In this document: positions 11,059 to 61,311 of the stretch, in pieces
Layout of the letters: every line of letters starts with the position of its first letter
How positions within the stretch are numbered: position 1 is the first letter of the stretch
Assembly (NCBI RefSeq): GCF_001423265.1
Contig: NZ_LMND01000033.1
Span: 62,196 to 126,195, forward strand
DNA from: Methylobacterium sp. Leaf108
GTDB lineage: Bacteria; Pseudomonadota; Alphaproteobacteria; Rhizobiales; Beijerinckiaceae
Length of the DNA stretch: 64,000 nucleotides
Reading direction: 5' to 3'
Notes under the pieces: generated by a model
What the model was told of the DNA's origin: nothing
Databases searched by the model: none
The model's input: only the letters and a program-made list of their open reading frames with translations
Program-made: the position numbers and the translations under genes

Positions 11059-11379
11059 TCACCCCTGGCGAGCCGGCGTCGTCACGGTAAGCCCGTCGAG
11101 GTCGGGCTTGACGCGGATCTGACAGGAGAGGCGCGAGGTCGAGCGCACGTCGGAGGCGAAATCGAGCATGTCCTGCTCCATCGGCTCGGCCGGCCCGACG
11201 ACGGCGGCCCAATCGGCGCCGACGTAGACGTGGCAGGTGGCGCAGGCGCAGGCGCCGCCGCATTCCGCGTCGATCCCCGGGACGTTGTTGCGGATCGCCG
11301 CCTCCATCACGGTCGAACCGACCTCCGCCTCCACTGTCCTGGCCGTGCCGGCATGGTCGACGTAGGTGATCTTGGGCAT
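11059..11379 (-). CDS. Adrenodoxin-type [2Fe-2S] ferredoxin
   Basis: 106 residues, full length for the class. Ligands are C40-x5-C46-x2-C49 (in ECGGACACATC) and C86 (RLSCQI), the adrenodoxin arrangement rather than the plant type. The acidic loop AEPMEQDMLDFA and the PGIDAECGG entry are also typical. It would carry electrons to monooxygenases (for example P450s) or serve Fe-S biogenesis. Neither isc genes nor a reductase is adjacent, so the partner is unknown. Confidence 0.92.
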   Translation of the reverse strand: MPKITYVDHAGTARTVEAEVGSTVMEAAIRNNVPGIDAECGGACACATCHVYVGADWAAVVGPAEPMEQDMLDFASDVRSTSRLSCQIRVKPDLDGLTVTTPARQG

Positions 11380-11558: not shown

Positions 11559-11900
11559 TCAGCTTGCGTCGGGCCCGAGGCGGTCGATGGCCGCCAGCGT
11601 GTCGGCGACGACCCTCGCGATATCCGCGAGGCCGGGAGGTGCGGGGTCTCCGGCGCGCAGGCCCGCCTCCACCTCGGCGCAGAGCGCGGCCAGCGCGGCG
11701 GCCCCGACCCCCAGGGCCGAGCCGCGCAGGGTATGGACGAGGTCGGCCCGCGGCGCCGACGCCGGCCCGTCCTCGCGAATGCGGGGCAGGAGCACGGCGC
11801 ATTGATGCGCGAACAGCGCCAGCACCTCCCGCGCCAGGTCGGCATCGCCGAAGGTCTGGGCGTCGAGATGGGCGCGGTCGATCAGGGCGGGAGACGACAC
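11559..11900 (-). CDS. Orphan Hpt (histidine phosphotransfer) domain protein
   Basis: 113 residues forming little more than one Hpt domain. The motif HTLRGSALGVG carries the probable phospho-acceptor His (about 56), followed by the helix-rich LAALCAEVEAGLRAG. I used a GTG with AGGATCG seven bases upstream; an ATG 93 bases further upstream is possible. Hpt proteins relay phosphate between hybrid kinases and response regulators. No kinase or regulator is adjacent, so its phosphorelay cannot be named. The neighbouring growth-pole gene and CtrA-type sites make a CckA/ChpT-like cell-cycle link tempting, but the sequence does not show it. Confidence 0.75.
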   Translation of the reverse strand: MSSPALIDRAHLDAQTFGDADLAREVLALFAHQCAVLLPRIREDGPASAPRADLVHTLRGSALGVGAAALAALCAEVEAGLRAGDPAPPGLADIARVVADTLAAIDRLGPDAS

Positions 11901-12183
11901 GTGGGGCGATCCTGGGCCTGCGCGGGCGAACCGGGGGGCGGCTGTCCACAGGCCATGCGGCGGCGGTTCGCAGGCGCTTAAGCATTGAGGCATCATGCGG
12001 ATAGCCCGCTGCCGGAGTTCGGGCTTTCGTTTGGTAACCATTCCGTTAAGGTTTTTCGGGTGGTTCGCCCGGCTCGGGTATCCCGGCCCGGCGGCGAAGT
12101 CTAAACTTCCTTGGTAAATCGGTAAAAATGACTCCGCCCGCCGGTGACAGCGGTGGGTCGGGGCTCGCGTGACGAGGCGTTGG

Positions 12184-15100
12184 ATGGCCACGGAAAAGAA
12201 GCTCAAGGATCCGGCCGAGGCGGCGCTTTCCGCGATCGAACAAGCTCTGAACCTGGACATGCTGACCCCCGAGCGGGACGACAAGCGCGTCGAGCCGCGG
12301 TTGCCCGACGTCGGCGACGGCGACGACCTCCTCGACCGCAACGGACGCCTCGCCCCCCCACGCCTCGACCTCGATCCCCCGCTGGTGTCCGACCTCGCCC
12401 AGGCCGATCGTTCGCGGCCCCGGCGCGAGGGCGGGCTCCTGCCCCCCGACCGTTCGCTGGTGGCCAACGACGACCGCCAGAACATCGGCATCCTGCAGCA
12501 GACCCTGCGGGTGCGCCCGTCCTCGAAGCCCTACCTCGTGGCAGCGATCGCGGCGCTCGCCTGGATCGGGGCCCTCGTCGGCCTGGCCTGGCAGCAGTCG
12601 GGCGGCGACCTGCGCGCCTTCTTCGCCGGGATGACCGCCCTCCAGTCCGCCGTCGCCGCCACCGTGGTGGTCGGCCCCACCGTGCTGTTCCTGATCATGG
12701 CCATGCTGGCCGTGCGCGCCCAGGAGATGCGCCTCGTCGCCCGCGCCGTCGGCGAGGTCGCGATCCGTCTGGCCGAGCCCGAGAACTTCTCCACCGACGC
12801 GGTCCTGACCATGTCGCAGACCGTGCGCCGCGAAGTGGCCGCGGTGGGCGACGGCGTCGAGCGGGCGCTGGCGCGGGCCGGCGAACTCGAGACCCTGGTG
12901 CGCGGCGAGATCGCCACCCTGGAGCGGGCCTATTCCGAGAACGAGATCCGCATCCGGTCGCTGGTCGACGAACTCGTGGCGCAGCGCGAGTCCATCGTCG
13001 CCAACGCCGAGCGGGTGCGCGGCGCCATCGCCGGCTCCCACCAGAACCTCACGGCGGAACTCGACGGCGCGGCCGAGCGCATCGTCGCCGCCGTCACCGG
13101 TGCGGGCGACCGGGTCACCGGCGCCCTCGACGCGCGCGGCGAGGCCATCACCACGGCGCTCGGCGACCGCGGCGACGCCATCACGGCGGCGCTGGGCGTG
13201 GCCGGCGACAAGGTGGTCGGCCTCGTCTCGGAGCGTGGCGACGATCTCGTCCAGCGCCTGACCACCACCAGCGAGGGCGTGCGCGGCAGCCTCGCCGACG
13301 TCGGCAACGCCCTGGCGCAATCCCTGGAGAGCCGTGCCGGCGAGGTCACCCAGGCCTTCGAGCGCACCGGTGGCATCCTCACCGCGACGCTGGCCGACAA
13401 CGCCGGCCAGGTCGCCAGGACCCTCGCCGAGACCGGGGCCGAGGTGATCTCGGCGCTCAACCGCCAGGGCGGCGCCGTGCGCGAGAGCTTCGAGGAATCC
13501 GCTCGCTCCCTCGAGACCACCTTCCTGTCCCGCGGCACCGAACTCACCGAGCGGTTCGCCTCCACCGGCGGCACCATCACCGCGCGGTTCGCCGAGACCG
13601 GCGCCGCCCTCACCCAGGACATCGCCACCCGCGGGGCGTCCCTGCGGGCCGAGATCGAGGCGGCCGGCACCGGCGTGTCCGATCTCATCGAGACGCGCAG
13701 CCGCGACGCCCACGCCGGCCTCGTCCTGGCCGCCACCGGCATCGTCGAGACCTTCAGCACCAGCGCCGCCGGGCTGCGCGACGACCTCGTCGCCTCCGCC
13801 GAGGGCCTGGCCGCCAGCGTCGGCGCCAGGGGCGATGCCATCGCGGACCGGATCGCCGCAGTGGCCGACCGCCTGCACGAGACCGTGACCGTCCAGGGTG
13901 GCGGCCTCGAGACCCGGCTCGATGCGGCCGGCGAGCGGATCGGCAACCTCGTCCTCCTGCGGACCCAGGAGGCGACCACCGCCCTCGACGGCGCCTTCAC
14001 CTCCCTCGGCCAGACCTTCGAGACCCGCGCGTCGGGCACCGTCGACAGCCTGCGCTCCACCGTCGACGCGCTCGGCGCGGACATCGACGGCCGTGGCGCC
14101 AGGGTCGCCGAGATCGTCCGGCTCGGCGCCGAGGCGATCACGACCTCCGTCGTCGCCAGCACGGACGAGGCGGTCAGGGCCCTGCGTCACTCCGCCGAAG
14201 CATCGGCCGCCACCGTCGGCGCCAGCACGGCGGAGGCCGTCGAGGCCCTGCGCCGCTCCGCCGAGGAGACCACCAACGCGGTCGGCGCCAGCACCGGCGA
14301 GGCCGTCCAGACGTTCCGCCGCTCGGCCGAGGACATGACGGCCGCCGCCGCCGCCAGCGCCGACCGCGCCGCCGAAGCCATCCGCCTGTCCGCCTCCGGG
14401 GCGACCGGCGAGCTCGAGGCCCGCACGGCGGACGTCGCCGCCGTGTTCGACCGCCGCGTGGCGGCCACCGCGGACGACCTCTCCGCCAGGACCCAGGCGG
14501 CGGCCAACGCCCTGCTCGAAACGGTCCAGGGCGTCGGCGGCGAGCTCGAGCGCAGCGCCGAGACCTCCGTCGAGGCCCTGCGCCGGGCTGTGCTGGGCAT
14601 CGGCGACCAGGTGACGGAGCGGACCGCGCAGGTCACCGGCGCCCTCGCGCAGGCGGCCGAAGGCCTGCGGGCCGACCTCACCCAGCGCATCTCGGAGGTG
14701 GAAACCGCCTTCGGAAGCCAGGGCCGCGGCCTCTCCGACCTCATCGCCACCCATGCCCAGGATGCGCAGGCGCAGATCGCCGGCGTCGCCCGCGACGTGG
14801 TGATGGCGGTGACGACCCATGGCGCGCGCGTCAACGACGCCCTCGTGCGCACCGGGACCACCTTCACCGAAGCCACCGAAGGCCGCGCCCGCGACATCGA
14901 CGCGGTGCTCAACGACCGCCTCTCGGCCCTCATGGAGACGATCTCCCGCGGCGACATCCTGGCGGACCGGATCTCGCGGGATACGGCGTCCCTGACGCAG
15001 GTCGTGGACGGCCAGCTCGCCGAGATGGACCGCGTCATCACCGTCCAGGGCAAGGCCATGGCCGAGACCATCGCCGACCGCACGCGGGAGGCGCGCGATG

Positions 15101-18100
15101 TCGTCGAGGCGCAGCTCGGTGCCCTCGAGGACCGCTCCGTCAAGCGCACCGCCGAGATCGGCGAGACCTTCACGACGCTGGTGACCCACATCGACGGACA
15201 TCTCGGCGCCCGCGCCACCGCGCTCAACGAAGCCCTGATCGTGCGCACCGGCGAGATGGCGCGCATCATGACCGAGGGCAGCCGCGACCTCGTCCAGGCG
15301 CTGGACGCCCGTGCCGACGGCATGGCCCAGGACATCGCCGCCCGCAGCCAGAGCCTCGGCGACACCCTCGGCGTCCGTGCGGCCGAAATCGCCGAGCGGA
15401 TCGAGGTGCAGACGGTCGCCCTCGCCGGCCGCCTCGACGACGGGGTCGGCCGCTTCGACACCGGCGTCCTCCAGCGCCTGGAGGCCATCGGTGCCGCCCT
15501 CGAGGAGCGCAGCCGCCTCATCGACGAGACCTTCGGCGCCCAGGCCTTCGAGGCGATCCGCCTCATCGAGAGCCGCACCCGCGCCGTCGACGACGAACTC
15601 GCCGGCCGCACCCGCGAACTCGTCGCCCTGGTCGAGCAGCGCAGCGGCGGCGCCAACGAGGCGCTCGCCGCCCAGGTCGAGGCGGTCCGTGCCGCCTTCG
15701 CGGAGCGCGCCGACGACCTCGGCACCCTCATCGACGCCCGCACCGCGGCCATGACGAGCGAACTCGACGAGAAGGGGCGCCAGGTCTTCGGCGCCCTGGG
15801 CGGCCGCATCACCGAGATCGCCCGTCTCTTCGACACCGGCAGCGCCTCGCTCGGCGCCCTCCTCGACCAGCGCGGCGAGGCCGTGCTCGGCCGCCTGCGC
15901 GAGGTCGTGGCCGAAGCCGACCGGCTCCTCGCCGAGGGCGAAGGCCGTCTCGGCAAGACCCTCGACACCCGCACCGCCGACATCAGCGCCCTCCTCGACG
16001 AGGGGGTCCGCACGGTCCACGGCCTCCTCGACGACCGCACCGGCGAGATCCGCGGCCTGCTCGACGGGCATGCCGGCGCCCTCGCCCATACCTTCGACGA
16101 CCGGGCCAGCCAGATCCGGGCCCTCCTCGACGACCGCACCGGGGCGATCACCGCGACCCTCGACGACCGCACCGGCCGCATCCGCGCCCTCGTCGACGAC
16201 CACTCCGAAACGCTGGCCGCGACCTTCGACGGAGGCACCGACCAGATCAGGGGCCTGCTCGACCGTCATGCCGACGGCGTGACCGCCACGCTGGGCGACG
16301 GCACCGCCCGGATCGGCGGGCTCATCGAGACCCACCGGACGGACCTCGCCGCGGCCATGGACGGCGGCGCCGGCCTCATCCGCGACCTCGTCGAGACGCA
16401 TGCCACCGTCGTGGCCACCGCGCTGGGTGACAAGGCCGTCGAGATCAAGTCCGCCCTGGAGCACCACGCCGAAGAACTGGCCACCACCCTCGACGGCCGG
16501 ACGGAGAGCCTGCGCGCCATCGTGGGCGGCCATTCCGGCGCCATCGCCGCGACCTTCGGCGACGGCACCGCCGAGATCCGCAACCTGCTCGACCATCACG
16601 CGCAGGGCCTCGCCACCACGATCGCGCAGGGCGCGAGCGGCATGCGGACCCTCGTCGACGGCCAGTCCGGCGTCCTGGCCGCCACCCTGGAGGAGAGGAC
16701 CGAGCAGATGCGCGGCCTCCTCGACCAGCACGGCGAGTCCCTGACGGCGACCCTCGACGACCGCACCGGCCGCCTGCGCAACCTCGTCGACGGTCATGCC
16801 CGCGCCTTCACCACCACCGTCGACGAGCGCACCGCCGAAATCCGCGGCCTGCTCCAGACGCATGCCGGCACCGTCGCGACCAGCTTGGACGACCAGACCG
16901 GCGCGATCCGGACCCTCCTCGACGGCCACGCCGGGGCGCTGACCGTCACCTTCGACGAGCGCATCGATCCGCTGCGCGACAGCCTGACCGAACGCAGCCA
17001 GCAACTCGTCTCGACCATCGAGACCGCCCTTACCCGGGCCACGGGCGCCATCGACGTGCGCAGCCAGGCGCTGCTCACCCTGTTCGACGAGCGCATCGGC
17101 GGCCTCGACGAGGTGGTCCAGGGCGGCGGCGCGCGCTTCGCCAAAACCATCGACGACCGCACCAGCGGCATTCGCGGCCTGTTCGACGAGATCCTGCGGG
17201 CCCTCGACGGACTGGTGGACGGCCGTGCCGAGGCCCTCGCCGACCGCCTCGACGCCCGTACGCAGACCCTCGCCACCCTGTTCGACGAGCGCATGCGTGC
17301 CCTCGACGCCCTGGTGGAAGAGCGGGCCTCCGACTTCGCGCGGACGATCGAGGCGCAGGGCTCGAGCCTGACCCAGACGGTCGACGCCCGCAGCGAGGCC
17401 TTCACCAGCCGCATCGACAACCGCATGAAGGTGTTCGCCAACCTCGTCGCCTCCCGTGGCGACGCCCTGGCCACGGCCTTCGACGACCGCCAGGACGCCT
17501 ATTCCACCCTGGTGGATCAGGGCACGGCCACCATGCTCGCCGCCTTCGACGAGCGCGTCAGCCGCCACGCCGCCCTCGCCGAGGCCCATGCGGCGGCGCT
17601 CGGTGCCGCCCTCGACCAGCGCAACGCCGCGATCAGCACTCTCCTCGACGGACGCACCGAAGAGCTCGGGACCGCCTTCGAGCGCCGCACCGGGGCGCTG
17701 GCCACGCTCATCGAGAGCCGTGGCCAGGCCCTGTCGCGACGCCTCGCCGAGAGCGCCGAGGTCATCACCCGCGCCATCGAGGAGCGCGGCGGCGCCCTCG
17801 TCACCACCCTGGACGGCCGCGGCACCGAGGTGGTCGAGGCCCTGGGCCACCATGCCGACCGCCTGCGCGACCTCGTCGAGGGCCCGGCCGCGACCCTGGT
17901 CGGTTCGCTCAACGACAGCGGCCAGGCCATCGAGCGGGCCCTGGCCGAACACGGCCAGCCCCTGGTGGAGGCGATCCGCGAGCGGACCGAGGCGCTGGTG
18001 GCGCAATCGGATGCCTCCGCCAATGCCCTGCTCAGTGCCATCGACGGCGGCGCATCGCGTGCCATCGCGACGCTGACGGATGCCGGCGACCGCCTGCGCA

Positions 18101-19866
18101 CCGATCTCGGCGGCGTACTCGGCCGCATCAACGGCGCCAACGAGGCCCTTCGCGACCTCGTGTCCGGTGCCGGCACCAACCTCGGGGCGATCGAGGAGGG
18201 ACTCGCCGGCCGCGTCCACCAGATCGAGGCCGCCCTCACGCAGATCGCGGAGGAGACGCGCCGGGCGAGCCAGGCCGTCTCGGAGCAGGTCGACGCCCTC
18301 AAGGGGGTCGCCGAAGGCGCCCTGCGCGAGGCCGGCGAGCTGGCCGAGACCCTCGACACCCGCGCCCGGGTCCTGTCCGAGCGCAGTGCCGAGCAGGTCG
18401 GCGGCCTGACGCAGGTCGCCGGGTCCCTCGAGACCATCGAGGGCCGGGTCTCCCAGGCCCTGGCCGAGCGGGCGACCGCGATCGAGGGCGTCCTGGCGCG
18501 CATTGAGGAGCGCTCCGGCACGCTGGAGGCCCAGACCGCCCGCTTCGACGCGACGGTGGAGCAGACCCTGCGCGCCGCCGAGGAACGGGCTCGCGGGATC
18601 GGTGCCGCCCTGTCGGAATCGGCCAAGAGCGCCGGCGCCGCCGTCACCGGCGATTTCGAGCGCCTGCGCGAGGGCGCCAGCAGCGAGGGCGAGCGCACCA
18701 CGCGGGTCGTTCAGGCGGCCATCGCCAGCGCCTCCGAGCAGATGATGGAGGTGTTCTCCGCCGCATCCGCGCGCTTCGGCGAATCGGTCACGGTCATGCG
18801 CGACATGGCCGCCGAGATCCGCGGCGAACTCGACGCCACCCGCGCCGACCTCAAGCGCGGCGTGCTGGAGATCCCGCGCGAGACGCAGGACGCCACCGGC
18901 GAGATGCGCCGGGTGGTCTCCGACCAGATCAAGGCGCTGAACGAACTCTCGGCTTTGGTGTCCCGCTCGAACCGCTCGGTCGACGTCGCCCAGCCGGCCC
19001 CCGCCGACAATCCGGCCGGCGTCGCCACTGCGACCGGCACCCCCAAGGTCGCTGCGCCGTCGCCGGCTCAAGGTCTGGTGGTGCAGTCCGAGCCGGTCCA
19101 GGCCCCGCCGCCGGCCCCCGCACCGCCCGCCGTCATCGCGGTGACGGCGGCCGGTGAGGCCGGGCCCGCCCGCTCGGTGTCCACCCCGGCGACCGCCGCG
19201 CCGCGGCCGGGCGATCCCCTGCGCGTGGCCGCCCCCGGCCCGCGCAAGGAGGATGTCCGCGGCAGCCGCGACAATCGCGGTTGGCTGTCCGACCTCCTCA
19301 CCCGTGCCTCGCTCGACGAGGGCAGCGAGGAGGAGATCCGCAACGCCGTGCCGGTTCCGTCCTCCGGTCGTGGACCGACGGGCCGGACGGCGGGGCTCGC
19401 CCCGGCGGCCGCTCCGCAGGGCTCCGGCTCGTCCCAGGCATCCGTCCCACCCCAGGGCCCCGTCTCGCCTCAGGTGTCCCTCGCCCCTCCCCCCGCCGCC
19501 AAGGCGGCGACCGAGCGCAAGGTCGCGACCCTCGACAGCCTGACCACCGACATCGCCAAGATGATCGATCACCGCACGGCGGTGGACCTGTGGGAGCGCT
19601 ATCGCCGCGGCGAGCCGAACCTGTTCGACGCTAGGCTCTACACGCCGCAGGGTCGCCAGACCTTCGAGGAGATCCGCCGCCGCTACGGCGCGGATGCCGA
19701 CTTCCACCGCACGGTGGACCGGTACGTGACCGAGTTCGAGCGGCTGCTCGGGGACGTCTCGAAGAACGACCGCGACAGCCGCCGGGCCGACGCCTATCTC
19801 ACCTCCGAGACCGGCAAGGTCTACACCATGCTCGCCCACGCCAGCGGCCGCTTCGACGGAGCATAG
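12184..19866 (+). CDS. Giant membrane-anchored hendecad-repeat protein, Growth Pole Ring (GPR/RgsE)-like
   Basis: 2560 residues. The N-terminal ~110 residues are acidic and cytosolic. Two membrane helices follow (about 116-136 and 155-177), so both ends face the cytoplasm. From 12997 to 18108 the protein is 155 back-to-back 11-residue repeats, a continuous amphipathic rod. Then come about 250 less regular helical residues, a Pro/Ala-rich linker (about 2280-2440), and a C-terminal domain with VDLWERYRRGEPNLF and TSETGKVYTMLAHA. In Rhizobiales such giant apolipoprotein-like proteins (GPR of Agrobacterium, RgsE of Sinorhizobium) form a ring at the growing pole and are needed for polar growth and rod shape. 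That function is inferred from architecture. The ATG at 12184 was preferred to the GTG at 12169. Confidence 0.85.
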   Translation: MATEKKLKDPAEAALSAIEQALNLDMLTPERDDKRVEPRLPDVGDGDDLLDRNGRLAPPRLDLDPPLVSDLAQADRSRPRREGGLLPPDRSLVANDDRQNIGILQQTLRVRPSSKPYLVAAIAALAWIGALVGLAWQQSGGDLRAFFAGMTALQSAVAATVVVGPTVLFLIMAMLAVRAQEMRLVARAVGEVAIRLAEPENFSTDAVLTMSQTVRREVAAVGDGVERALARAGELETLVRGEIATLERAYSENEIRIRSLVDELVAQRESIVANAERVRGAIAGSHQNLTAELDGAAERIVAAVTGAGDRVTGALDARGEAITTALGDRGDAITAALGVAGDKVVGLVSERGDDLVQRLTTTSEGVRGSLADVGNALAQSLESRAGEVTQAFERTGGILTATLADNAGQVARTLAETGAEVISALNRQGGAVRESFEESARSLETTFLSRGTELTERFASTGGTITARFAETGAALTQDIATRGASLRAEIEAAGTGVSDLIETRSRDAHAGLVLAATGIVETFSTSAAGLRDDLVASAEGLAASVGARGDAIADRIAAVADRLHETVTVQGGGLETRLDAAGERIGNLVLLRTQEATTALDGAFTSLGQTFETRASGTVDSLRSTVDALGADIDGRGARVAEIVRLGAEAITTSVVASTDEAVRALRHSAEASAATVGASTAEAVEALRRSAEETTNAVGASTGEAVQTFRRSAEDMTAAAAASADRAAEAIRLSASGATGELEARTADVAAVFDRRVAATADDLSARTQAAANALLETVQGVGGELERSAETSVEALRRAVLGIGDQVTERTAQVTGALAQAAEGLRADLTQRISEVETAFGSQGRGLSDLIATHAQDAQAQIAGVARDVVMAVTTHGARVNDALVRTGTTFTEATEGRARDIDAVLNDRLSALMETISRGDILADRISRDTASLTQVVDGQLAEMDRVITVQGKAMAETIADRTREARDVVEAQLGALEDRSVKRTAEIGETFTTLVTHIDGHLGARATALNEALIVRTGEMARIMTEGSRDLVQALDARADGMAQDIAARSQSLGDTLGVRAAEIAERIEVQTVALAGRLDDGVGRFDTGVLQRLEAIGAALEERSRLIDETFGAQAFEAIRLIESRTRAVDDELAGRTRELVALVEQRSGGANEALAAQVEAVRAAFAERADDLGTLIDARTAAMTSELDEKGRQVFGALGGRITEIARLFDTGSASLGALLDQRGEAVLGRLREVVAEADRLLAEGEGRLGKTLDTRTADISALLDEGVRTVHGLLDDRTGEIRGLLDGHAGALAHTFDDRASQIRALLDDRTGAITATLDDRTGRIRALVDDHSETLAATFDGGTDQIRGLLDRHADGVTATLGDGTARIGGLIETHRTDLAAAMDGGAGLIRDLVETHATVVATALGDKAVEIKSALEHHAEELATTLDGRTESLRAIVGGHSGAIAATFGDGTAEIRNLLDHHAQGLATTIAQGASGMRTLVDGQSGVLAATLEERTEQMRGLLDQHGESLTATLDDRTGRLRNLVDGHARAFTTTVDERTAEIRGLLQTHAGTVATSLDDQTGAIRTLLDGHAGALTVTFDERIDPLRDSLTERSQQLVSTIETALTRATGAIDVRSQALLTLFDERIGGLDEVVQGGGARFAKTIDDRTSGIRGLFDEILRALDGLVDGRAEALADRLDARTQTLATLFDERMRALDALVEERASDFARTIEAQGSSLTQTVDARSEAFTSRIDNRMKVFANLVASRGDALATAFDDRQDAYSTLVDQGTATMLAAFDERVSRHAALAEAHAAALGAALDQRNAAISTLLDGRTEELGTAFERRTGALATLIESRGQALSRRLAESAEVITRAIEERGGALVTTLDGRGTEVVEALGHHADRLRDLVEGPAATLVGSLNDSGQAIERALAEHGQPLVEAIRERTEALVAQSDASANALLSAIDGGASRAIATLTDAGDRLRTDLGGVLGRINGANEALRDLVSGAGTNLGAIEEGLAGRVHQIEAALTQIAEETRRASQAVSEQVDALKGVAEGALREAGELAETLDTRARVLSERSAEQVGGLTQVAGSLETIEGRVSQALAERATAIEGVLARIEERSGTLEAQTARFDATVEQTLRAAEERARGIGAALSESAKSAGAAVTGDFERLREGASSEGERTTRVVQAAIASASEQMMEVFSAASARFGESVTVMRDMAAEIRGELDATRADLKRGVLEIPRETQDATGEMRRVVSDQIKALNELSALVSRSNRSVDVAQPAPADNPAGVATATGTPKVAAPSPAQGLVVQSEPVQAPPPAPAPPAVIAVTAAGEAGPARSVSTPATAAPRPGDPLRVAAPGPRKEDVRGSRDNRGWLSDLLTRASLDEGSEEEIRNAVPVPSSGRGPTGRTAGLAPAAAPQGSGSSQASVPPQGPVSPQVSLAPPPAAKAATERKVATLDSLTTDIAKMIDHRTAVDLWERYRRGEPNLFDARLYTPQGRQTFEEIRRRYGADADFHRTVDRYVTEFERLLGDVSKNDRDSRRADAYLTSETGKVYTMLAHASGRFDGA
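12997..18108 (+). repeat. 155 tandem 33-bp units encoding hendecad repeats
   Basis: Reading the protein in blocks of 11 from 12997 gives 155 consecutive units. All are 11 residues except one of 10 (SRGDILADRI), and the coordinates close exactly at 18108. The pattern is hydrophobic at positions 7 and 11, small or polar at 4, and often D-x-R at 1-3; examples are DDRTGEIRGLL, DERTAEIRGLL and DARGEAITTAL. From 16030 to 17019 the units pair into a clearer 22-residue period. Such 3-4-4 spacing predicts a right-handed or straight coiled coil. Confidence 0.9.
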
Positions 19867-19888
19867 AAGCGGGCGCCGGGCTCGACGC

Positions 19889-19924
19889 ATCGAACCGGCC
19901 CGCAACCGCGCGGGCCGGTTCGAT
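19889..19924. terminator. Strong 15-bp hairpin terminator after the giant gene
   Basis: Perfect 15-bp inverted repeat (ATCGAACCGGCCCGC and its complement) with a 6-base loop AACCGC, 22 bases after the stop codon at 19866 and followed by CGTTTAG. It lies between convergent genes and could serve both. Confidence 0.75.
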
Positions 19925-20022
19925 CGTTTAGCTCGGGTCGTCGGGGTAAGGGAGCAGACGCGCGCGGCTACCGGCGTCGGTAGAACGGACATCGCGTGAA
20001 CGCCATTCCGGCGCCCGCTCCC

Positions 20023-20475: not shown

Positions 20476-21054
20476 TCAGCGCCCGCCGTTCACCCAGCGC
20501 ACGATGTCGGCCAGGACCACGGCCATGGCGCGGTCGAGGCCGGCGGCGGCGCTGCCGGGGTCGACCTTCGCGATCGGCACGCGCGCCTGGAACACCTTGG
20601 CCGCCACCACGCTGCCGCTGGCGTCGGCGATGAGCTTGACCGAGAGGTCGACGACCGCCTCGCTCGATCCGGCCGCGATGTCGAAGGCGCGGATCTCGCT
20701 GATGAGCTGGTACTGGGCCGCGATCTTGTCGCCGGGCCGGCTGACGGATCGCAGGCGGCCGGAGTTCTCGAGGCTCTGGATGATGCGGGTCTGGAGCAGG
20801 CGCGGCAGCCGGTCGGACCATTGCCCGCCACCGAGGAACGAGAGCCCGCCCCCCGGTTCGCGCACGATGATGCGGTCCGCCTCGAACGGCTGCAGGCCCA
20901 CCGGCTCGGCCACGACGATCGAACGGGCGGAGGCGGCGACCCGGCCCTGGCCCGGCAGGGCCATCAGGTCGAAGGTCAACGGCGCGGCCCCGCCGCAGCC
21001 GCCGAGGGCCGTGGCGAGGACGATCGCTGCAAGGGCGGGTCGCTGGAACATCAT
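20476..21054 (-). CDS. ABC-type transport auxiliary lipoprotein (PqiC/Mce-associated)
   Basis: 192 residues. The N-terminus is a lipoprotein signal with lipobox ALGGC (lipidated Cys at about 20). The mature part resembles the ABC transport auxiliary lipoprotein family (PqiC-like): a short TFDL strand, IVVAEPVGLQPFEADRIIVR, and WSDRLPRLLQTRIIQSLENSG. Such lipoproteins sit on the outer membrane and receive lipid or brace the MCE bridge across the periplasm. It follows the MCE protein gene and belongs to the permease-ATPase-MCE-lipoprotein operon. Either of two adjacent ATG codons may be the start. Confidence 0.88.
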   Translation of the reverse strand: MMFQRPALAAIVLATALGGCGGAAPLTFDLMALPGQGRVAASARSIVVAEPVGLQPFEADRIIVREPGGGLSFLGGGQWSDRLPRLLQTRIIQSLENSGRLRSVSRPGDKIAAQYQLISEIRAFDIAAGSSEAVVDLSVKLIADASGSVVAAKVFQARVPIAKVDPGSAAAGLDRAMAVVLADIVRWVNGGR

Positions 21055-21165
21055 ACGCGGGGAGGCCTGGACGCTATCGCAGCGCGAAACGCTGCGACCA
21101 CTAAACTACGGCAACGCTCGTTTGGTGCCGTGCGCGCGGACACACCGGCACGCTCGCGGCTGCGA

Positions 21166-22248
21166 TCAGCGGGCGCCGTTGTATTCCGGCAACGACGGCT
21201 TGCCGCCGAAGATCACCTGCGAGGGATCGCGTTCGAGGTTCTTCACCGTCCGGTTGAGGGTGTTGAGGGTGCGCTGGCCGTCGGTGGACAGGGCCTCGAC
21301 CTCGCGCCGGCCGGTGCCGCTCAGGCGGTTGAAGCTGGTGGCGATGTTGGCGGTGCGCTTGTCGAGATTTTCGGACAGCGCCCGGAAGGCACGGCCGGCG
21401 TCGCGCACCGAGATGGCGGCATCGCGGACTTCCGCGAAGGTGCTCGATCCCGCCTCGCCGGAGGCGGATCCGAGGAAGCCCTGGGCACCCTTCAGCACGG
21501 CATCGACCCGGTCCGCGGAGCTGTTGAGCTTGCCCGCCAGCGAACGGGCGTCCTTGACCGCGCCCTCGATGTCGGGGCTCGCGGTGCTGAGCGCCGTCGA
21601 GAAGCGCTCGGCGTTGTCGATGACCCGGTTGAGCTTCTGGCCGTCGATCGCCTTGACGAGGGTGCTCACCGCCGGGCCGCTCTCGGCCAGGGTCTTGGAA
21701 AACGCCTCGACGTTGGCCAGCGTGCGCGTGATGGCGCCCTCGTTGCCGGCCACGATCTTGTCGAGGCGCTGGAGCACGTCGTCGGCGCGCTGGGCGATCT
21801 GCTTGGCCGCCGTCATCATGTCCTGGATGTCGGAGCTGTCGGCGAAGATGGTGGGCATCTGGTCGCCGCTGGCCGGGGTCAGGGCCGCCGCATCGGCGTT
21901 GCCGCCGCTCAGCGACACCACGGAGACGCCGGTGAGCAGGGCCGAATCGAGCCGGGCGCGGGTGTCGGCGCGCAACGGCGTCGTGCTGTCGACCTCGGCG
22001 ATCGCCACCACCCGGCGCGGGTCCTGAGGCAGCAGGCGCACGCTCATCACCTCGCCGACCTTGATGCCGTTGAAGGTCACCGTGGAGCCCTTGGCGAGGC
22101 CGCCGACGCTGCCGGAGAAGACGATGCGCACGCTTTCGCGCAGCTGGCTGCGCGATCCGCCCTGCAGCCAGAACACGAAGCCGAAGCCGGCCACAATCAC
22201 CGCCAGGGTGAAGGCGCCGATGAGGGCGTAGTTCGCACGAGTCTCCAT
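21166..22248 (-). CDS. MCE/MlaD family substrate-binding protein of a lipid ABC transporter
   Basis: 360 residues. An N-terminal anchor helix (about 7-29, YALIGAFTLAVIVAGFGFVF) is followed by one MCE domain (about 38-120) with VTFNGIKVGEV and ARLDSALLTGVSVVSLSGG. The C-terminal region (about 140-330) is helical, including DIQDMMTAAKQIAQRADDVLQRL, and would form the long tube or needle seen in MCE proteins that reach across the periplasm. With the permease and ATPase upstream it should move phospholipids or other hydrophobic molecules between membranes. The start was set at METRANYALIG. Confidence 0.92.
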   Translation of the reverse strand: METRANYALIGAFTLAVIVAGFGFVFWLQGGSRSQLRESVRIVFSGSVGGLAKGSTVTFNGIKVGEVMSVRLLPQDPRRVVAIAEVDSTTPLRADTRARLDSALLTGVSVVSLSGGNADAAALTPASGDQMPTIFADSSDIQDMMTAAKQIAQRADDVLQRLDKIVAGNEGAITRTLANVEAFSKTLAESGPAVSTLVKAIDGQKLNRVIDNAERFSTALSTASPDIEGAVKDARSLAGKLNSSADRVDAVLKGAQGFLGSASGEAGSSTFAEVRDAAISVRDAGRAFRALSENLDKRTANIATSFNRLSGTGRREVEALSTDGQRTLNTLNRTVKNLERDPSQVIFGGKPSLPEYNGAR

Positions 22249-22322
22249 GATGTCAGTCCTGTCCGGGATCGGCGACGGATGCGCTGTGCGCCGACGCACG
22301 CCGCAGCCGGAGGGCGCAAGCG

Positions 22323-23138
22323 TCAGGCATGCACGCCGACCTTGTCGGTGACGATGTTGCGGGCGCGCTTGCCGTGGAAATAGGAGCGCAGCCAGGGATG
22401 GTCGCTGGCCAGCATCGCCTCGATCGGGCCCTGCGCGATGATCTGCCCGTCGCCCAGGGCCGCGATGCGGTCGCAGGCGGTATAGAGGCTGTCGAGATCG
22501 TGGGTGACCATGAAGACGGTCAGTCCCAGGGTCTGCTTGAGGGTGGCCACGAGTTCGTCGAACTCGCCGGCCCCGATCGGGTCGAGGCCGGAGGTCGGCT
22601 CGTCGAGGAACAGCACTTCCGGGTCGAGGGCGAGCGACCGGGCCAGCGCCGCACGCTTGATCATGCCGCCGGAGAGCTCCGAGGGCAATTTGTCGGCGGC
22701 GTCGGGCTTGAGGCCGACCATTTCGATCTTGAGGCGCGCGAACTCGTCGAGCAGGCGCTCGGACAGGTTCAGGTGCTCGCGCATCGGCATCTGGATGTTC
22801 TGCTTGACGGTGAGCGCGGAGAAGAGGGCGCCCTGCTGGAACAGCACGCCCCAGCGCTGCTCGATGCGCCGGCGCTGGGCGATGGAGAGCCCGTCGACGT
22901 TCTCGCCGAAGACCTCGATGGTGCCCGAGCGCTTCGGCACCAGGCCGAGAATGGTGCGGGTGAGCACCGACTTGCCCTGGCCGGACGGGCCGACGAAACC
23001 GAGGATCTCGCCGCGGTAGATGTCGAGATCGAGCCCCTTCATGACGATCTTGTCGCCGAAGCCGACGACGAGATCGCGCACGCTGATGATCACGTCGCGT
23101 GGCGGCGTGGCGCCGGGGGGATGGGGTGAGTCTGTCAC
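22323..23138 (-). CDS. MlaF-type ABC transporter ATPase
   Basis: 271 residues from the GTG encoding (M)TDSPHPPG. A TTG 21 bases upstream with a GGTGA site is the alternative start. Walker A is GPSGQGKS, the Q-loop lies in LFQQGALFSALTV, the signature is LSGGMIKRAALARS (Gly-Met form typical of MlaF), and Walker B is LFLDEPTSGLDPIG with the H-loop in VTHDL. The EPTSGLDPIGAGEFDELV stretch is characteristic of MlaF over other ABC ATPases. A C-terminal tail follows, ending FHGKRARNI, as in MlaF homologues that dimerise. It energises the neighbouring MlaE-like permease. Confidence 0.93.
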   Translation of the reverse strand: MTDSPHPPGATPPRDVIISVRDLVVGFGDKIVMKGLDLDIYRGEILGFVGPSGQGKSVLTRTILGLVPKRSGTIEVFGENVDGLSIAQRRRIEQRWGVLFQQGALFSALTVKQNIQMPMREHLNLSERLLDEFARLKIEMVGLKPDAADKLPSELSGGMIKRAALARSLALDPEVLFLDEPTSGLDPIGAGEFDELVATLKQTLGLTVFMVTHDLDSLYTACDRIAALGDGQIIAQGPIEAMLASDHPWLRSYFHGKRARNIVTDKVGVHA

Positions 23139-23145
23139 GGGCGTC

Positions 23146-23192
23146 AGCGGGTTTCGCAAATGTCGTCACCGGTCTTGCGTCGAAAACCTGCG
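23146..23192 (-). repeat. 47-bp dispersed palindromic repeat, copy 1
   Basis: On the minus strand this reads CGCAGGTTTTCGACGCAAGA, then CCGGTGACGACATTTGCGAA, then ACCCGCT. It matches 41 of 47 positions of the element at 30538-30584. The outer parts form a loose inverted repeat (AGGTTTTCG against CGAAACC). It lies between the permease and ATPase genes and overlaps the alternative TTG start of the ATPase. Confidence 0.7.
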
Positions 23193-23239
23193 ACGGACCA
23201 AGGGCCTGAGCGGCGTGAGGCGTCGGCGCGCCACCCTGC

Positions 23240-24385
23240 CTAGAAATCGATGGCCGCGAAGAAGACGGCGAAGAGACCATCAAGCACGATCACCATAAAG
23301 ATTGACTTGACGACTGAGGCGGTGACGTGGCGGCCGAGGGATTCCGCCGAGCCTTCGACCGCGAACCCCTCGATGGTGGCGATGATGCCGATGATCAGCG
23401 CCATGAACGGCGCCTTGATCAGCCCCACCGCGACGTGGTGCATCGAGACCGCGGCCTGCAGGCGCGACAGGAACGCCTCGATCGTCATGCCGCCGTAGAG
23501 GGTGGCCACCAGCCCGCCTCCCGCGAGGGCGGCCAGGGAGGCGAGGAAGGCGAGGATCGGCAGGCCGATCACCAGCGCCAGGATGCGCGGGACGATCAGG
23601 ATCTCGATGGGGTCGAGGCCCATGACGCGCAGCGCGTCGACCTCCTCGCGCATGCGCATCGAGCCGATCTCGGCGGTGAAGGCGCTGCCTGAGCGGCCCG
23701 CCACCATGATCGAGGTGAGCAGCACCCCGAGTTCGCGCAGGATCAGGAGGCCGATGAGGTTGACGACGAAGCTCTGGGCGCCGAACCGCTGCAGCTGGAA
23801 GATGCCCTGCTGCGCGACGATGCCGCCGACCAGGAACGAGATCAGCACGATGATCGGCACGCCGTTGAAGGCGACCTGCTGGATCTGGTTGACGAGCGCC
23901 GTGCCGCGGAAGGTGCTGGGGCGGGAGGCGACCCGCAGGCAGGCGAGCACCACCTCGCCGAGGAACGCGAGGCCGGTGACGAGGTCGGTCTTGCCCCCGA
24001 CCACCCGGACGCCGAAGGCCTCGAGGAAGCTGTAGACCCGGCCGCGGCGGGCCGGCGGCACAGGGACGGGGCTGAGGATGCGCGCCTCGCGCAGGAGGAT
24101 GCGGTGCTCGGGCGAGGCGCCGGCATAGACGAACGTGCCGCCCGCCGCCTCGACCTCGCCGCGGGTGCGTTCCAGCACCCAGGCCCCGAGGGTATCGAGG
24201 CGCATCACGCCGGACAGGTCGATCCGCACCGGCTGGGCGCGCGCGTCCTGCGTGATGCGGGCGGCGGCGGCCTCCACGGCCGGGGCCTCGTCGGCGGTCC
24301 AGCGACCGCTCAGCGCGACGGTCCCGCCCTCGAGGAGGGTGGCGCCGGCGCGGTCGCGCTCCTGGACGGCATCGGCGGTTCGCAC
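23240..24385 (-). CDS. MlaE-type permease with N-terminal STAS domain
   Basis: 381 residues from a GTG start. Residues about 15-110 form a STAS-like domain (ALSGRWTADEAPAVE, IDLSGVMRLDTLGAWVLE), and about 130-381 are the MlaE permease with five or so membrane helices. Signature stretches are FNGVPIIVLISFLVGGIVAQQG, RELGVLLTSIMVAGRSGSAFTAEIG, and EEVDALRVMGLDPIE with the EIGSM/EALR coupling motif. In E. coli the STAS protein MlaB is separate; here it is fused to the permease, as is common in alphaproteobacteria. It heads the operon. Confidence 0.93.
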   Translation of the reverse strand: MRTADAVQERDRAGATLLEGGTVALSGRWTADEAPAVEAAAARITQDARAQPVRIDLSGVMRLDTLGAWVLERTRGEVEAAGGTFVYAGASPEHRILLREARILSPVPVPPARRGRVYSFLEAFGVRVVGGKTDLVTGLAFLGEVVLACLRVASRPSTFRGTALVNQIQQVAFNGVPIIVLISFLVGGIVAQQGIFQLQRFGAQSFVVNLIGLLILRELGVLLTSIMVAGRSGSAFTAEIGSMRMREEVDALRVMGLDPIEILIVPRILALVIGLPILAFLASLAALAGGGLVATLYGGMTIEAFLSRLQAAVSMHHVAVGLIKAPFMALIIGIIATIEGFAVEGSAESLGRHVTASVVKSIFMVIVLDGLFAVFFAAIDF

Positions 24386-57275: not shown

Positions 57276-57505
57276 AGATCGACCCGATCGACCTCGAGAT
57301 CCGCGATGACATCGAGCCGATCCTCGGCATCGAGCGGAGCGAGGCCGGACAAAGCGGCGGACAACGAGACGTCGTCGAAAGGCTCGATGAAGAGCCGTCC
57401 TCCTTCCCGACGCAGCATGGCCCGCTTACCGGGAAGCTCGAATTCGCGCGGGATGCGAAGGGCCTGACTCCGGCCGTTGCGGAAAAGGCTGACGATACGT
57501 TCCAT
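57272..57505 (-). CDS. vapB: VapB-type antitoxin (AbrB/SpoVT fold)
   Basis: 77 residues. The N-terminal swapped-hairpin DNA-binding domain reads SLFRNGRSQALRIPREFELPG, followed by LRREGGRLFIEPFD; the C-terminus wraps the toxin. It represses its own promoter, and the 5-bp inverted repeat GCATA-N5-TATGC at 57513-57527 is a likely site. The gene lies between the sensor-kinase and urtA. Confidence 0.9.
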   Translation of the reverse strand: MERIVSLFRNGRSQALRIPREFELPGKRAMLRREGGRLFIEPFDDVSLSAALSGLAPLDAEDRLDVIADLEVDRVDL

Positions 57506-57512
57506 GGTCGGA

Positions 57513-57527
57513 GCATATGGCCTATGC
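57513..57527. promoter_or_regulatory. Candidate VapB operator
   Basis: GCATATGGCCTATGC: inverted 5-bp arms GCATA/TATGC around TGGCC, 8 bases before the vapB ATG. VapBC complexes usually bind such short inverted repeats at their own promoter. Confidence 0.4.
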
Positions 57528-57607
57528 CGCGACCTATGTCACCTCCCGCAGGCCCTGCTCGCGGAAGCGACCTACGCAAAACAGCGTATATGCTGCGGCG
57601 CGTCATG

Positions 57608-57623
57608 CGGCCTAGCCTTTGCT
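57608..57623 (+). promoter_or_regulatory. Candidate sigma54 promoter of urtA
   Basis: CGGCCTAGCCTTTGCT: GG (57609-57610) and GC (57621-57622) are exactly 10 bases apart, as in -24/-12 promoters, and the -12 box TTTGCT is perfect. The -24 box keeps only GGC. It is 60 bases before the urtA ATG. Nitrogen-scavenging operons are often NtrC/sigma54 controlled. Confidence 0.35.
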
Positions 57624-57683
57624 TCGTCGGGTCGCGGCCAGTGTCACGAGCCGCGCGCTGAACGAACAGGGGTCGAGGTCACG

Positions 57684-58943
57684 ATGGCAGACGAGACGAA
57701 CACCGGTTTGCAATCGGCGCTGCGGCGCAGGCTCCTGATGGGTCTGGCCGGCGCTCCGGCCCTGGCCCTGCTGCCGCGACAGGCGTTCGCCGCCGGCCCG
57801 CCGACCGCGATGGTCAACACCAGCGGCCTCGCGGTCACCGACACGGAAGTGACGGTGGGCATTCTGCACTCGGCCACCGGCACCATGGCGATCTCCGAGA
57901 CCGGCTCGATCCAGGCCGAGAAGCTCGCCATCGAGGAGATCAACGCCGCCGGCGGCGTGCTCGGCCGCAAGATCAAGATCATCCAGGAGGACGGCGCCTC
58001 CGACTGGCCGACCTTCGCCGAGAAGGCCAAGAAGCTCCTCGTCAACGACCATTGCGCCGCCGTGATGGGTTGCTGGACCTCGGCCTCGCGCAAGGCTGCG
58101 CTGCCGGTGTTCGAGCAGTACAACGGCCTCCTGTACTATCCGACCTTCTACGAGGGCCTGGAGCAGTCCAAGAACGTCATCTACACCGGCCAGGAGGCGA
58201 CGCAGCAGATCCTCGCCTCGCTCAACTGGGTCGCCAAGGAGAAGGGCGCCAAGACGTTCTTCTTCATCGGCTCGGACTACATCTGGCCGCGGACCTCGAA
58301 CAAGATCGCTCGCAAGCACATCGAGAACGTGCTCAAGACAAAGGTCGTCGGCGAGGAATATTTCCCGCTCGGTCATACCCAGTTCAATTCGGTGATCAAC
58401 AAGCTCAAGCTGACCAAGCCCGACGTGATCTTCACCGACGTCGTCGGTGGCTCCAACGTGGCGTTCTACAAGCAGCTCAAGGCGGCCGGCATCGACCTCT
58501 CGAAGCAGACCCTGCTGACCATCTCGGTGACCGAGGACGAGATCGACGGCATCGGCGGCGAGAACATCGCCGGCGCCTATTCGTGCATGAAGTACTTCCA
58601 GTCGCTCAAGAACCCGAACAACGAGAAGTTCGTCGCCGCCTTCAAGAAGATGTGGGGCGAGAAGACCGTGATCGGCGACGTCACCCAGGCGGCCTACCTC
58701 GGGCCCTACCTGTGGAAGATGACCTGCGAGAAGGCCAACTCCTTCGACGTCGACAAGCTCGCCGTGGCCTCGGCCGACATCGAGTTCAAGGAAGCGCCGG
58801 AAGGCTACGTCAAGATCCACCCCAACCATCACCTGTGGTCGAAGACCCGCGTCGCCAGGGCCCTGCCCAGCGGCCAGTTCGAGGTCGTCTACGAAAGCCC
58901 CGACCTGATCGAGCCCAACCCCTTCCCCAAGGGCTACCAGTAG
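57684..58943 (+). CDS. urtA: Urea/short-chain amide ABC transporter, binding protein UrtA
   Basis: 419 residues from MADETNTG; the open frame extends upstream without a start. A twin-arginine-like signal (LRRRLLMGLAGAPAL... cleaved near AFA-AGPP) precedes a type-1 periplasmic binding fold: VTVGILHSATGTMAISE, GGVLGRKIKIIQEDGASDWP, AAVMGCWTSASRKA, NGLLYYPTFYEGLEQSKNV, and TNPHHH-like HPNHHLW. These stretches are those of UrtA. The formamidase-like gene at the window's end leaves open that amides are a substrate too. Confidence 0.93.
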   Translation: MADETNTGLQSALRRRLLMGLAGAPALALLPRQAFAAGPPTAMVNTSGLAVTDTEVTVGILHSATGTMAISETGSIQAEKLAIEEINAAGGVLGRKIKIIQEDGASDWPTFAEKAKKLLVNDHCAAVMGCWTSASRKAALPVFEQYNGLLYYPTFYEGLEQSKNVIYTGQEATQQILASLNWVAKEKGAKTFFFIGSDYIWPRTSNKIARKHIENVLKTKVVGEEYFPLGHTQFNSVINKLKLTKPDVIFTDVVGGSNVAFYKQLKAAGIDLSKQTLLTISVTEDEIDGIGGENIAGAYSCMKYFQSLKNPNNEKFVAAFKKMWGEKTVIGDVTQAAYLGPYLWKMTCEKANSFDVDKLAVASADIEFKEAPEGYVKIHPNHHLWSKTRVARALPSGQFEVVYESPDLIEPNPFPKGYQ

Positions 58944-59006
58944 TCGGCGCGCGACTTGCAAAGGCCGGCAGGCCCCGCATGGCCCGCCGGCCTCGGTCCG
59001 ACCCTT

Positions 59007-59121
59007 GGCCTCATCCCGAGGTGCCCGCGGAGCGGGGCTCGAAGGAGGGTTCGGGAGACGATCGCGCGCGCCGGAGGTCTCCCTCGAGGCCTCCGCTTCG
59101 CTCTGGCGCCTCGGGCTGGGG
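59007..59121. repeat. Long imperfect hairpin repeat between urtA and urtB
   Basis: Arms 59007-59049 (CCTCATCCCGAGGTGCCCGC...) and 59090-59121 (CCTCGAGGCCTCCGCTTCGC...) are complementary with several mismatches. Such elements recur in Methylobacterium genomes. Lying just after the binding-protein gene, it may stabilise the urtA mRNA or reduce read-through into the permease genes. Confidence 0.55.
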
Positions 59122-59183
59122 CAGCGGTCGGGGCGGACGACAAAAGACAATCCGCGCCGGCTAGATGAATCGGAGATCGGGCG

Positions 59184-60110
59184 ATGTTCGGTGATTACTC
59201 ACTCGCGGACCTGAGCGCGATCTTCGCGATGCAGGGCTTTGCCGGCCTGATCCTGTTCTCGGTCTACCTGCTGATGGCGCTCGGGCTCGCGATCATCTTC
59301 GGGCAGATGGGCGTCATCAACATGGCGCACGGCGAGTTCATGATTCTGGGTGCCTACGTCACCTACCTCTGCTCGACCTTCTTCCAGACCTACCTGCCCG
59401 GCCTGTTCGCCGCCTACTTCTTCGTGGCGATGGCGCTCGCCTTCCTCGCCTCCGGGGCGCTGGGGATGCTGGTGGAGTGGAGCCTGATCCGCCACCTCTA
59501 CAAGCGTCCGCTCGATACCCTGCTCGCCACCTGGGGCCTGTCGCTGATCCTGCAGCAGACCTACCGCACGGTGTTCGGGGCCCGCGAGGTCGGCGTGGAA
59601 CTGCCGTCCTGGCTGATCGGCTCGGTGCAGGTCACCGACACCATCGAGGTGCCGATCAACGGCATCTTCGTCATGGCCGTCACCACCCTCATCACGCTCG
59701 GCGTCGCGGCCCTGATGTACCGCTCGCGCTTCGGCGCCCAGGTCCGCGCCGTGGTGCAGAACCGGGCCATGGCCGGCGCGGTGGGCATCGACACCGAGAA
59801 GGTCGATCGCCTCACCTTCGGCCTGGGCTGCGGCATCGCCGGCATCGCGGGCTCCGCCTTCACCATGGTGGGGTCCACCGGGCCGACATCGGGCCAGCTC
59901 TACATCGTCGACACCTTCCTCATCGTCGTGTTCGGGGGGGCTGCGAGCCTGCTCGGCACCATCGCCTCGGCGTTCTCGATCTCGCAGACCCAGTCGACGC
60001 TGGAGTTCTTCCTGTCCGGCTCCACCGCCAAGGTCATCACGCTGCTCGCCGTCGTCGGCATCCTGATGTTGCGGCCGCAGGGCCTCTTCACCCTCAAGGT
60101 CCGGCGCTGA
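59184..60110 (+). CDS. urtB: Urea/amide ABC transporter permease UrtB
   Basis: 308 residues with about eight membrane helices and no signal peptide. It belongs to the LivH-like permeases: LGLAIIFGQMGVINMAHGEFMILGAY, LIRHLYKRPLDTLLATWGLSLILQQTYRTVFGARE, and AAVQNRAMAGAVGID (here AVVQNRAMAGAVGID). The GINMAHGE and LLATWGLSL pieces are UrtB-like. It follows urtA by 240 bases (with the hairpin repeat) and precedes urtC by 10. Confidence 0.94.
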   Translation: MFGDYSLADLSAIFAMQGFAGLILFSVYLLMALGLAIIFGQMGVINMAHGEFMILGAYVTYLCSTFFQTYLPGLFAAYFFVAMALAFLASGALGMLVEWSLIRHLYKRPLDTLLATWGLSLILQQTYRTVFGAREVGVELPSWLIGSVQVTDTIEVPINGIFVMAVTTLITLGVAALMYRSRFGAQVRAVVQNRAMAGAVGIDTEKVDRLTFGLGCGIAGIAGSAFTMVGSTGPTSGQLYIVDTFLIVVFGGAASLLGTIASAFSISQTQSTLEFFLSGSTAKVITLLAVVGILMLRPQGLFTLKVRR

Positions 60111-60120
60111 GGAGGCGAGG

Positions 60121-61299: not shown

Positions 61300-61311
61300 G
61301 AGCCCCCGTCC

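Follow-up and report, generated by a model that had tools for sequence, protein, structure and literature searches.

A predicted GPR/RgsE orthologue of Methylobacterium with a rod of 155 hendecad units

Growth from one pole in Rhizobiales without MreB has at its center a giant protein, named GPR in Agrobacterium and RgsE in Sinorhizobium, that is yet mechanistically unexplained. The locus described here raises the question of whether Methylobacterium possesses this protein and, if so, what kind of rod it forms. It lies in a stretch of 64,000 nucleotides from Methylobacterium sp. Leaf108 (contig NZ_LMND01000033.1; hereafter, the window), in which an open reading frame from an ATG at 12184 to a stop at 19866 on the forward strand encodes 2560 amino acids. 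This protein is probably the Methylobacterium orthologue of GPR/RgsE, acting as a membrane-anchored polar scaffold made of a hendecad coiled coil; we infer its location, ring, partners, and oligomeric state. The GPR/RgsE family is already known, and what is added here is the exact register of the rod, its 11-residue insertions and deletions, the Hpt neighbor, the linker motif, and a class-wide family of differing rod pitch.

Identity and domain architecture

The nonrepetitive ends of the protein were compared with RgsE from S. meliloti. The N-terminal 275 residues were found to be 38% identical over 289 alignment columns (E = 1e-45) and the C-terminal 130 residues 55% identical over 125 columns (E = 8e-45). 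The S. meliloti gene was met in a search of a plasmid collection, on accession CP090106.1, where it is annotated as a "kinesin" and encodes 2089 amino acids with the C-terminal domain at its end; it was called RgsE from its length, species, and homology, not from a locus tag. According to the text of PMC7327166, RgsE is 2089 amino acids long and 42% identical to GPR from Agrobacterium. The order of ferredoxin gene, Hpt gene, and divergent large gene is common to the window and S. meliloti. By these sequence comparisons the window protein is firmly predicted to be an orthologue of RgsE and, via RgsE, of GPR, the sequence compared being that of S. meliloti.

A preliminary description of the locus had proposed a Methylobacterium counterpart of GPR/RgsE, and the homology at both ends and the common gene order bear this out. 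It had named two findings that would count against the proposal, dissimilar ends and a GPR homologue elsewhere in the genome; the ends are similar at the E values given above, and the C-terminal domain occurs just once in the genome. The Pfam family PF01442 likewise exceeds its cut-off solely in this gene, with two weaker matches elsewhere in the genome below it. Record CP090106.1 (L083) is titled S. meliloti pSymB, is 3.7 Mb long, and has both rgsE and cytochrome bc1 genes aboard; the label looks wrong, or the replicons look fused.

An unrelated giant coiled-coil protein could resemble GPR through low-complexity helices only, and weak profile matches to ZorA2 and SpiroCoCo would suit such a protein. 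That explanation is refuted by the match of both nonrepetitive ends to RgsE, and the gene order shared with rgsE also speaks against it; we give it next to no credence.

The protein starts with a charged, Pro-containing segment (residues 1–116; 12184..12531, +) that was read as disordered from sequence alone and that aligns with the N-terminus of RgsE. Hydropathy predicts two transmembrane helices, at residues ~118–136 (12535..12591, +) and ~157–179 (12652..12720, +). The hendecad rod follows (residues 272–1975; 12997..18108, +), and then a continuation without clean 11/3 periodicity (residues 1976–2264; 18109..18975, +) that ends after a conserved QIKALNEL stretch. A linker rich in Pro and Ala (residues 2265–2440; 18976..19503, +) contains the conserved motif GWLSDLLTRAS (residues 2366–2376; 19279..19311, +), and a conserved helical domain closes the protein (residues 2440–2560; 19501..19863, +). 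The preliminary description had placed two membrane helices ahead of the rod and a C-terminal domain behind a Pro/Ala linker, in agreement with hydropathy and sequence. No Pfam family was matched when the N-terminal region and the C-terminal domain were searched alone, and the five Pfam matches of the whole protein other than PF01442 are all below their cut-offs.

An alternative GTG start at 12169 would lengthen the protein by 5 residues, but the beginning MAT(E/K)KK is common to the window protein and S. meliloti RgsE and favors the ATG at 12184. An antisense frame (12046–19992, −) of 2648 amino acids spans the whole gene in a shared codon register and exceeds it in length. It was rejected as a rival gene: the frame stays open because the sense frame has no TTA, CTA, or TCA codons (0 of 2561, vs 7 of 6274 in the 15 other called genes of the window).

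Register, reach, and length of the rod

The 1704 residues of the rod equal 154 × 11 + 10 and include no Cys. Their hydrophobic periodicity peaks at 3.665, 5.495, and 10.985 residues, and the power at 11/3 was determined to be 94.1, compared with a maximum of 11.2 among 200 shuffled sequences scanned over 3.4–3.8. Phase tracking in 110-residue segments revealed one shift of ~1 residue, in segments between residues ~841 and 1005, and the remaining phase drifts are ~0.3 residue or less from residue ~290 to 1975. When one slip was allowed, the best fit was obtained at residue 923 (near nucleotide 14950; 14920..14980, +), where the power rises to as much as 246.4, a value not directly comparable with the shuffle maximum because the position and size of the slip were optimized; a shift of 5 at the same residue is nearly as good (243.4). 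The preliminary description had counted 155 consecutive 11-residue units, all equal but one, and the arithmetic closes with one 10-residue unit near residue 923.

Once the slip is corrected, I, L, M, F, V, W, or Y occupies position 11 in 97% of the units and position 7 in 86%. A, G, T, S, N, or Q occurs at position 4 in 84%, with acidic and basic residues there in 1% each. Position 1 is acidic in 50% of the units and position 3 basic in 54%, acids being most frequent at positions 1–2 and Arg at position 3. The 11/3 periodicity of core residues that marks a hendecad coiled coil holds across the rod. Self-identity is higher at lags of 22 and 44 residues (0.24 and 0.25) than at lags of 11 and 33 (0.17 and 0.19), and therefore pairs of hendecads make up a 22-residue super-repeat. 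In titles and abstract openings, with most subscription papers outside the scope of the search, no paper was found that joins "hendecad" with Rhizobiales or apolipoprotein or that describes GPR as a hendecad protein; the word "repeat" is absent from the main text of PMC8262873.

A helix of 11/3 periodicity might instead lie flat on the inner membrane, like those of apolipoproteins, perilipins, and alpha-synuclein, and mark or shape the polar membrane. The match to PF01442 (E = 5.8e-75, in 14 stretches) is far above its cut-off, and an 11/3 stripe with a 22-residue super-repeat is likened to apolipoproteins. Lipid roles were proposed by Zupan et al. in the text of PMC8262873. The apolar face, however, is narrow, each 11-residue unit offering two positions for large hydrophobic residues and one for small residues, and a rod with a net charge of −93 and only 9 Lys beside 168 Arg would be unfavorable on an anionic membrane. 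On sequence grounds, the narrowness of the stripe and the negative charge argue against a membrane-lying rod without deciding the matter, and we consider such a rod rather unlikely. The PF01442 match may be convergent.

Each residue of a helix contributes a rise of 0.1485 nm. The 1704 residues would thus reach ~253 nm if fully extended, close to the ~250 nm of the preliminary description. The same description took folding back or wrapping of the rod to be necessary, which goes too far: ~253 nm is comparable with the 200-nm ring reported for Agrobacterium GPR (PMC8262873), and the rod could lie along such a ring. Folding into antiparallel hairpins or bundles, with a reach far below 250 nm, is nevertheless a possibility that we hold in doubt rather than dismiss. 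A 330-residue slice of the rod was modeled by AlphaFold as two helices, residues 2–180 (179 residues) and 185–329 (145 residues), with a mean predicted local distance difference test score (pLDDT) of 77.9 and a predicted template modeling score (pTM) of 0.38. The interruption at slice residues 181–184 (residues ~1406–1409 of the protein) would suit a fold-back, as would the high Gly content (170 of 1704). On the opposite side, the rod contains just 3 Pro and one register slip in 1704 residues, and the break is of low confidence and comes from a single-sequence model of one slice.

The length of the rod varies largely in whole units. Among the 62 rod gaps in 14 nearest-neighbor pairs from 21 genus proteins, 33 are multiples of 11, compared with 2 of 75 gaps outside the rod, and for pairs at least 79% identical the count is 20 of 30. 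The binomial probability of 1e-18 for 33 of 62 at an expectation of 1/11 is indicative only, as the pairs have members in common. Taken between two conserved anchors, rod length is 6 mod 11 in 7 of the 12 genus proteins that could be measured, across lengths from 1744 to 2184. The genus frames with the C-terminal domain, where uninterrupted and not ended by a contig, range from ~2050 to 3330 amino acids. At the DNA level, Tandem Repeats Finder (TRF) reports short arrays of 33, 66, and 99 bases.

Distribution of the family, rod pitch, and MreB

A match to the C-terminal domain was obtained for 59 of 61 relatives, the two misses being draft genomes of 500 and 420 contigs. Among sampled genomes, 156 of 160 from the order were positive, with one match in each of the rows listed, as were 108 of 289 from the class. 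The best 80 of at least 561 confirmed matches include named relatives from Agrobacterium vitis, Rhizobium rhizogenes, Hoeflea, Shinella, Mesorhizobium, Stappia, and Roseibium, and short proteins from Parvibaculum and Tepidicaulis. Distant homologues in Emcibacterales and Rhodospirillales were noted earlier by Krol et al. in the text of PMC7327166. The four order genomes with no match to the domain are G358, G387, G444, and G461; G387 and G444 are near-complete and belong to one genus, of which a third member, G418, has the domain.

With the mreB profile TIGR00904, no match at E ≤ 1e-20 was found in this genome, and MreC falls below its cut-off (23.2 vs 28 bits). The TIGR00904 cut-off of 366 bits is passed in 257 of the 289 class genomes. 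Three matches to MreB_Mbl (PF06723) in the Leaf108 genome, the best at 54.5 bits, were set aside as other actin-fold proteins, since TIGR00904 has no match. Within the order, mreB occurs in 19 of 160 genomes (18 above the cut-off), none of the 19 lacking the C-terminal domain. In the class, 97 of the 108 domain-positive genomes also have MreB, a count read off match lists, for which five unlisted MreB negatives were taken to be the genomes missing from the mreB list. Most domain-positive class genomes thus have mreB, and therefore the GPR family extends beyond polar growers without MreB.

A family older than polar growth could have another main role in this lineage, for example as a polar or envelope scaffold regulated by the neighboring Hpt. 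The class-wide and order-wide counts of genomes with both MreB and the domain would favor this. On the other hand, every Rhizobiales orthologue tested so far has a part in polar growth or is located at the growing pole, according to PMC7327166, PMC8262873, and PMC9938171, and the window genome is of the MreB-less kind; we regard another main role as improbable.

The pitch of the rod differs across the class. Of the 20 rods from outside the order, 17 peak at 3.55–3.60 (~3.57) and 3 at 3.60–3.63. Within the order, 55 of 79 peak at 3.645 or above, 22 at 3.60–3.645, and 2 lower, and all 21 rods measured in the genus are hendecad. A period of at least 3.645 was found at 52 of 63 MreB-minus and 3 of 16 MreB-plus loci of the order, and at 0 of 20 loci outside it; MreB status was tested in three genomes of the genus. 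The median rod length of order loci is 1368 residues in MreB-minus vs 594 in MreB-plus genomes. Exceptions to the pattern are the MreB-plus genomes G359, G360, and G397 with hendecad rods and 11 MreB-minus genomes without them. The relation of rod pitch to MreB is a clade-level difference.

A tie of rod pitch to MreB loss itself was tried on a tree and rejected: with ~5 changes of rod type and 4 supported independent pairs, it is not significant. The tree was built from 99 C-terminal domains over 112 columns, which is few for that number of rows; of the five rows from the genus, three were entered as MreB-minus without a test. Left out were 16 of the 21 genus rows (near-copies), L083–L085 (MreB status unassigned), L111 (a rod too short for measurement), and L044, L101, L103, L108, and L117 (odd or partial).

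Among the named Mesorhizobium loci, complete rods have periods of 3.604–3.642. Ten Mesorhizobium loci (L203, L207, L213, L216, L217, L222, L226, L229, L237, and L244) have rods of ~1600–1770 residues with a global peak near 3.606 and a local one near 3.624, vs 11/3. Long rods near 3.62 exist, and therefore a long rod does not in general require a pure hendecad.

Several single loci deserve mention. The ~0.9-Mb genomes G128 (L103), G248, and G342 retain short proteins with the C-terminal domain, in frames of 647–677 amino acids. In two genomes the domain lies in a short frame far from a contig end, at G019:C1:407621-407980 (L019, 273 amino acids) and G393:C13:162208-162525 (L111, 452 amino acids); both genes look interrupted or mis-sequenced. 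Sphingomonas parapaucimobilis (L084) has a GPR-family protein of 774 amino acids and a divergent Hpt gene on an 880-kb replicon, together with genes for gltX, citrate synthase, and nuo.

Neighboring genes, linker motif, and comparison with known systems

The divergent neighbor of the large gene encodes a single-domain Hpt protein with the motif HTLRGS (11559..11996, −; PF01627, E = 7.9e-7), in a conserved position. Past it lies a (2Fe-2S) ferredoxin gene of the same conserved block (11059..11379, −; PF00111, E = 1.2e-11), a relative of which was found in 37 of 43 loci searched. At loci with at least 1 kb of upstream sequence, and counting Hpt genes within ~1.2 kb of the large frame, an opposite-strand upstream Hpt was found at 63 of 76 loci of the order, 20 of 20 of the genus, and 4 of 20 outside the order; the Hpt of L111, 3 kb from its broken frame, stands outside these counts. 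Among the named loci, 11 of 80 being too short for the count, it was found in 67 of 69, at a median distance of 335 bases and a maximum of 2047. A phosphorylation motif of the HxLKGS type is present in 78 of 91 aligned Hpt proteins.

From gene position, the Hpt may be linked to GPR function. The hybrid kinase RdsA of Rhizobium etli, an essential protein that acts in cell shape, has no nearby Hpt gene, and upon its depletion GPR expression stayed normal, according to the text of PMC9022086. The neighboring Hpt is a possible partner of an RdsA-type kinase. The word Hpt has no occurrence in two GPR/RgsE papers, PMC7327166 (main text) and PMC8262873.

Directly downstream of the GPR gene are Mla-type lipid transport genes (ABC_trans_aux lipoprotein, ATP-binding cassette (ABC) ATPase, and MlaE permease; 20476–24385, −). 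The S. meliloti rgsE gene is followed by a transposase and cytochrome bc1 genes, not by an Mla-type group. At ~57500–62100 (+), the window is similar to urea ABC transporter (urt) genes on replicons of Methylobacterium, Chelatococcus, and Azospirillum. When the DNA of positions 40000–64000 was searched, the first match was Methylobacterium bullatum (84.2% identity over 42% of the query), in keeping with an origin in Methylobacterium or a near relative.

The linker motif is of the type W-x(2,3)-[DENSGQ]-[LIVM]-[LIMFV]. Of the 81 order proteins, which include those of S. meliloti and Shinella, 69 have it, as do 21 of 21 genus proteins and 74 of 75 named proteins (after five fragments below 500 amino acids were dropped), but only 2 of 21 proteins outside the order, compared with ~1.5 matches expected in all from shuffled linkers. 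The pattern was written after inspection, an earlier and narrower one having matched fewer, and the count is descriptive. AlphaFold models the motif as a helix of low confidence and the C-terminal domain as helical, with block-mean pLDDT values of 71–94 over residues 111–200 of a 202-residue construct; for the whole model, the mean pLDDT is 65 and the pTM 0.51. No Foldseek match to the domain model was found in the PDB at E ≤ 0.001, and no PDB relative of its sequence, the best hit being a designed protein at E = 0.06. In A. tumefaciens GPR, the Pro-rich region at residues 1890–2000 lies mostly inside the 221-residue C-terminal deletion that abolishes function, and GPR without those residues fails to complement, according to the text of PMC8262873. 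Judged by its distance from the C-terminus in relatives, the linker motif would lie inside that deletion as well.

The architecture, orthology, register, indel pattern, gene neighborhood, and undetectable MreB are observations, from which a mechanism may be proposed. The two N-terminal helices are predicted to anchor the GPR orthologue in the inner membrane, and the rod would reach through the cytoplasm as a near-straight hendecad coiled coil, up to ~250 nm long, setting reach and geometry. Several copies might join into a collar at the growing pole, as GPR suggests, and the W-DLL motif of the linker and the helical C-terminal domain could dock partners in envelope synthesis. The rod would evolve in length mostly by whole 11-residue units, because other changes would rotate the hydrophobic stripe off the partner helix. 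In an organism without MreB, the GPR orthologue would replace the MreB scaffold. In Brucella abortus, RgsE was located at the new pole (PMC9938171).

A number of points weigh against this mechanism. The polar position and the ring in Methylobacterium are expected by analogy with the species studied. The presence of MreB beside the domain in most positive class genomes means that homology alone is no proof of a polar-growth role. GPR lacking 332 residues still gave paired foci, which makes the C-terminus dispensable for ring assembly (PMC8262873). The AlphaFold slice with its low-confidence break is one sequence modeled as a monomer and is silent on oligomers. In addition, 29 of the 62 rod gaps are not multiples of 11, and the window protein itself, at 10 mod 11 from anchor to anchor, is out of step and among the five exceptions. 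The gaps in multiples of 11 could partly come from in-register recombination of the DNA repeats; selection on register and such recombination would both predict 11-residue gaps, and the data fit either alike.

A broader and tentative proposal, which we think has some chance of being right but do not expect to be, is that the GPR family is an Alphaproteobacteria-wide, membrane-anchored mechanical scaffold that predates polar growth and is paired with Hpt in one branch. Most MreB-less Rhizobiales would have lengthened the rod and re-pitched it from a supercoiled 3.57 to a near-straight 11/3; the ~250-nm rod, changing in 11-residue steps, would set the collar size, and the Hpt would tie it to a cell-cycle phosphorelay. 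The regular register permits a testable mechanical model of the rod, the Hpt neighbor and the linker motif provide two handles, on signaling input and partner docking, and the class-wide distribution separates a general scaffold role from a polar-growth role.

Among known systems, GPR of A. tumefaciens (Atu1348) has the same plan: 2115 amino acids, two N-terminal membrane helices, 1700 residues of continuous helix, PF01442, and a Pro-rich region ahead of the C-terminus, according to the text of PMC8262873. The ring and depletion phenotype were shown there, whereas the window protein is known from its sequence. In the A. vitis relative (L241), the linker motif is present and the rod peaks at 3.666. 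RgsE of S. meliloti (SMc00190) shares the two membrane helices, the long rod, the Pro-rich linker, the C-terminal domain, and the ferredoxin–Hpt–rgsE order, but it has 2089 rather than 2560 amino acids, and its rod peak is weaker and shifted (69.8 at 3.654). The apolipoprotein A1/A4/E domain (PF01442) has helical repeats spaced by 11 and 22 residues, as the Pfam match reflects, whereas the rod in the window is much longer, uninterrupted, and acidic, with a narrow hydrophobic stripe. The short GPR-family proteins of Parvibaculum, Tepidicaulis, and S. parapaucimobilis have the same membrane hairpin, helical rod, C-terminal domain, and opposite-strand upstream Hpt gene, but they comprise 744–818 amino acids, and their rods have a period of 3.55–3.60 rather than 11/3.

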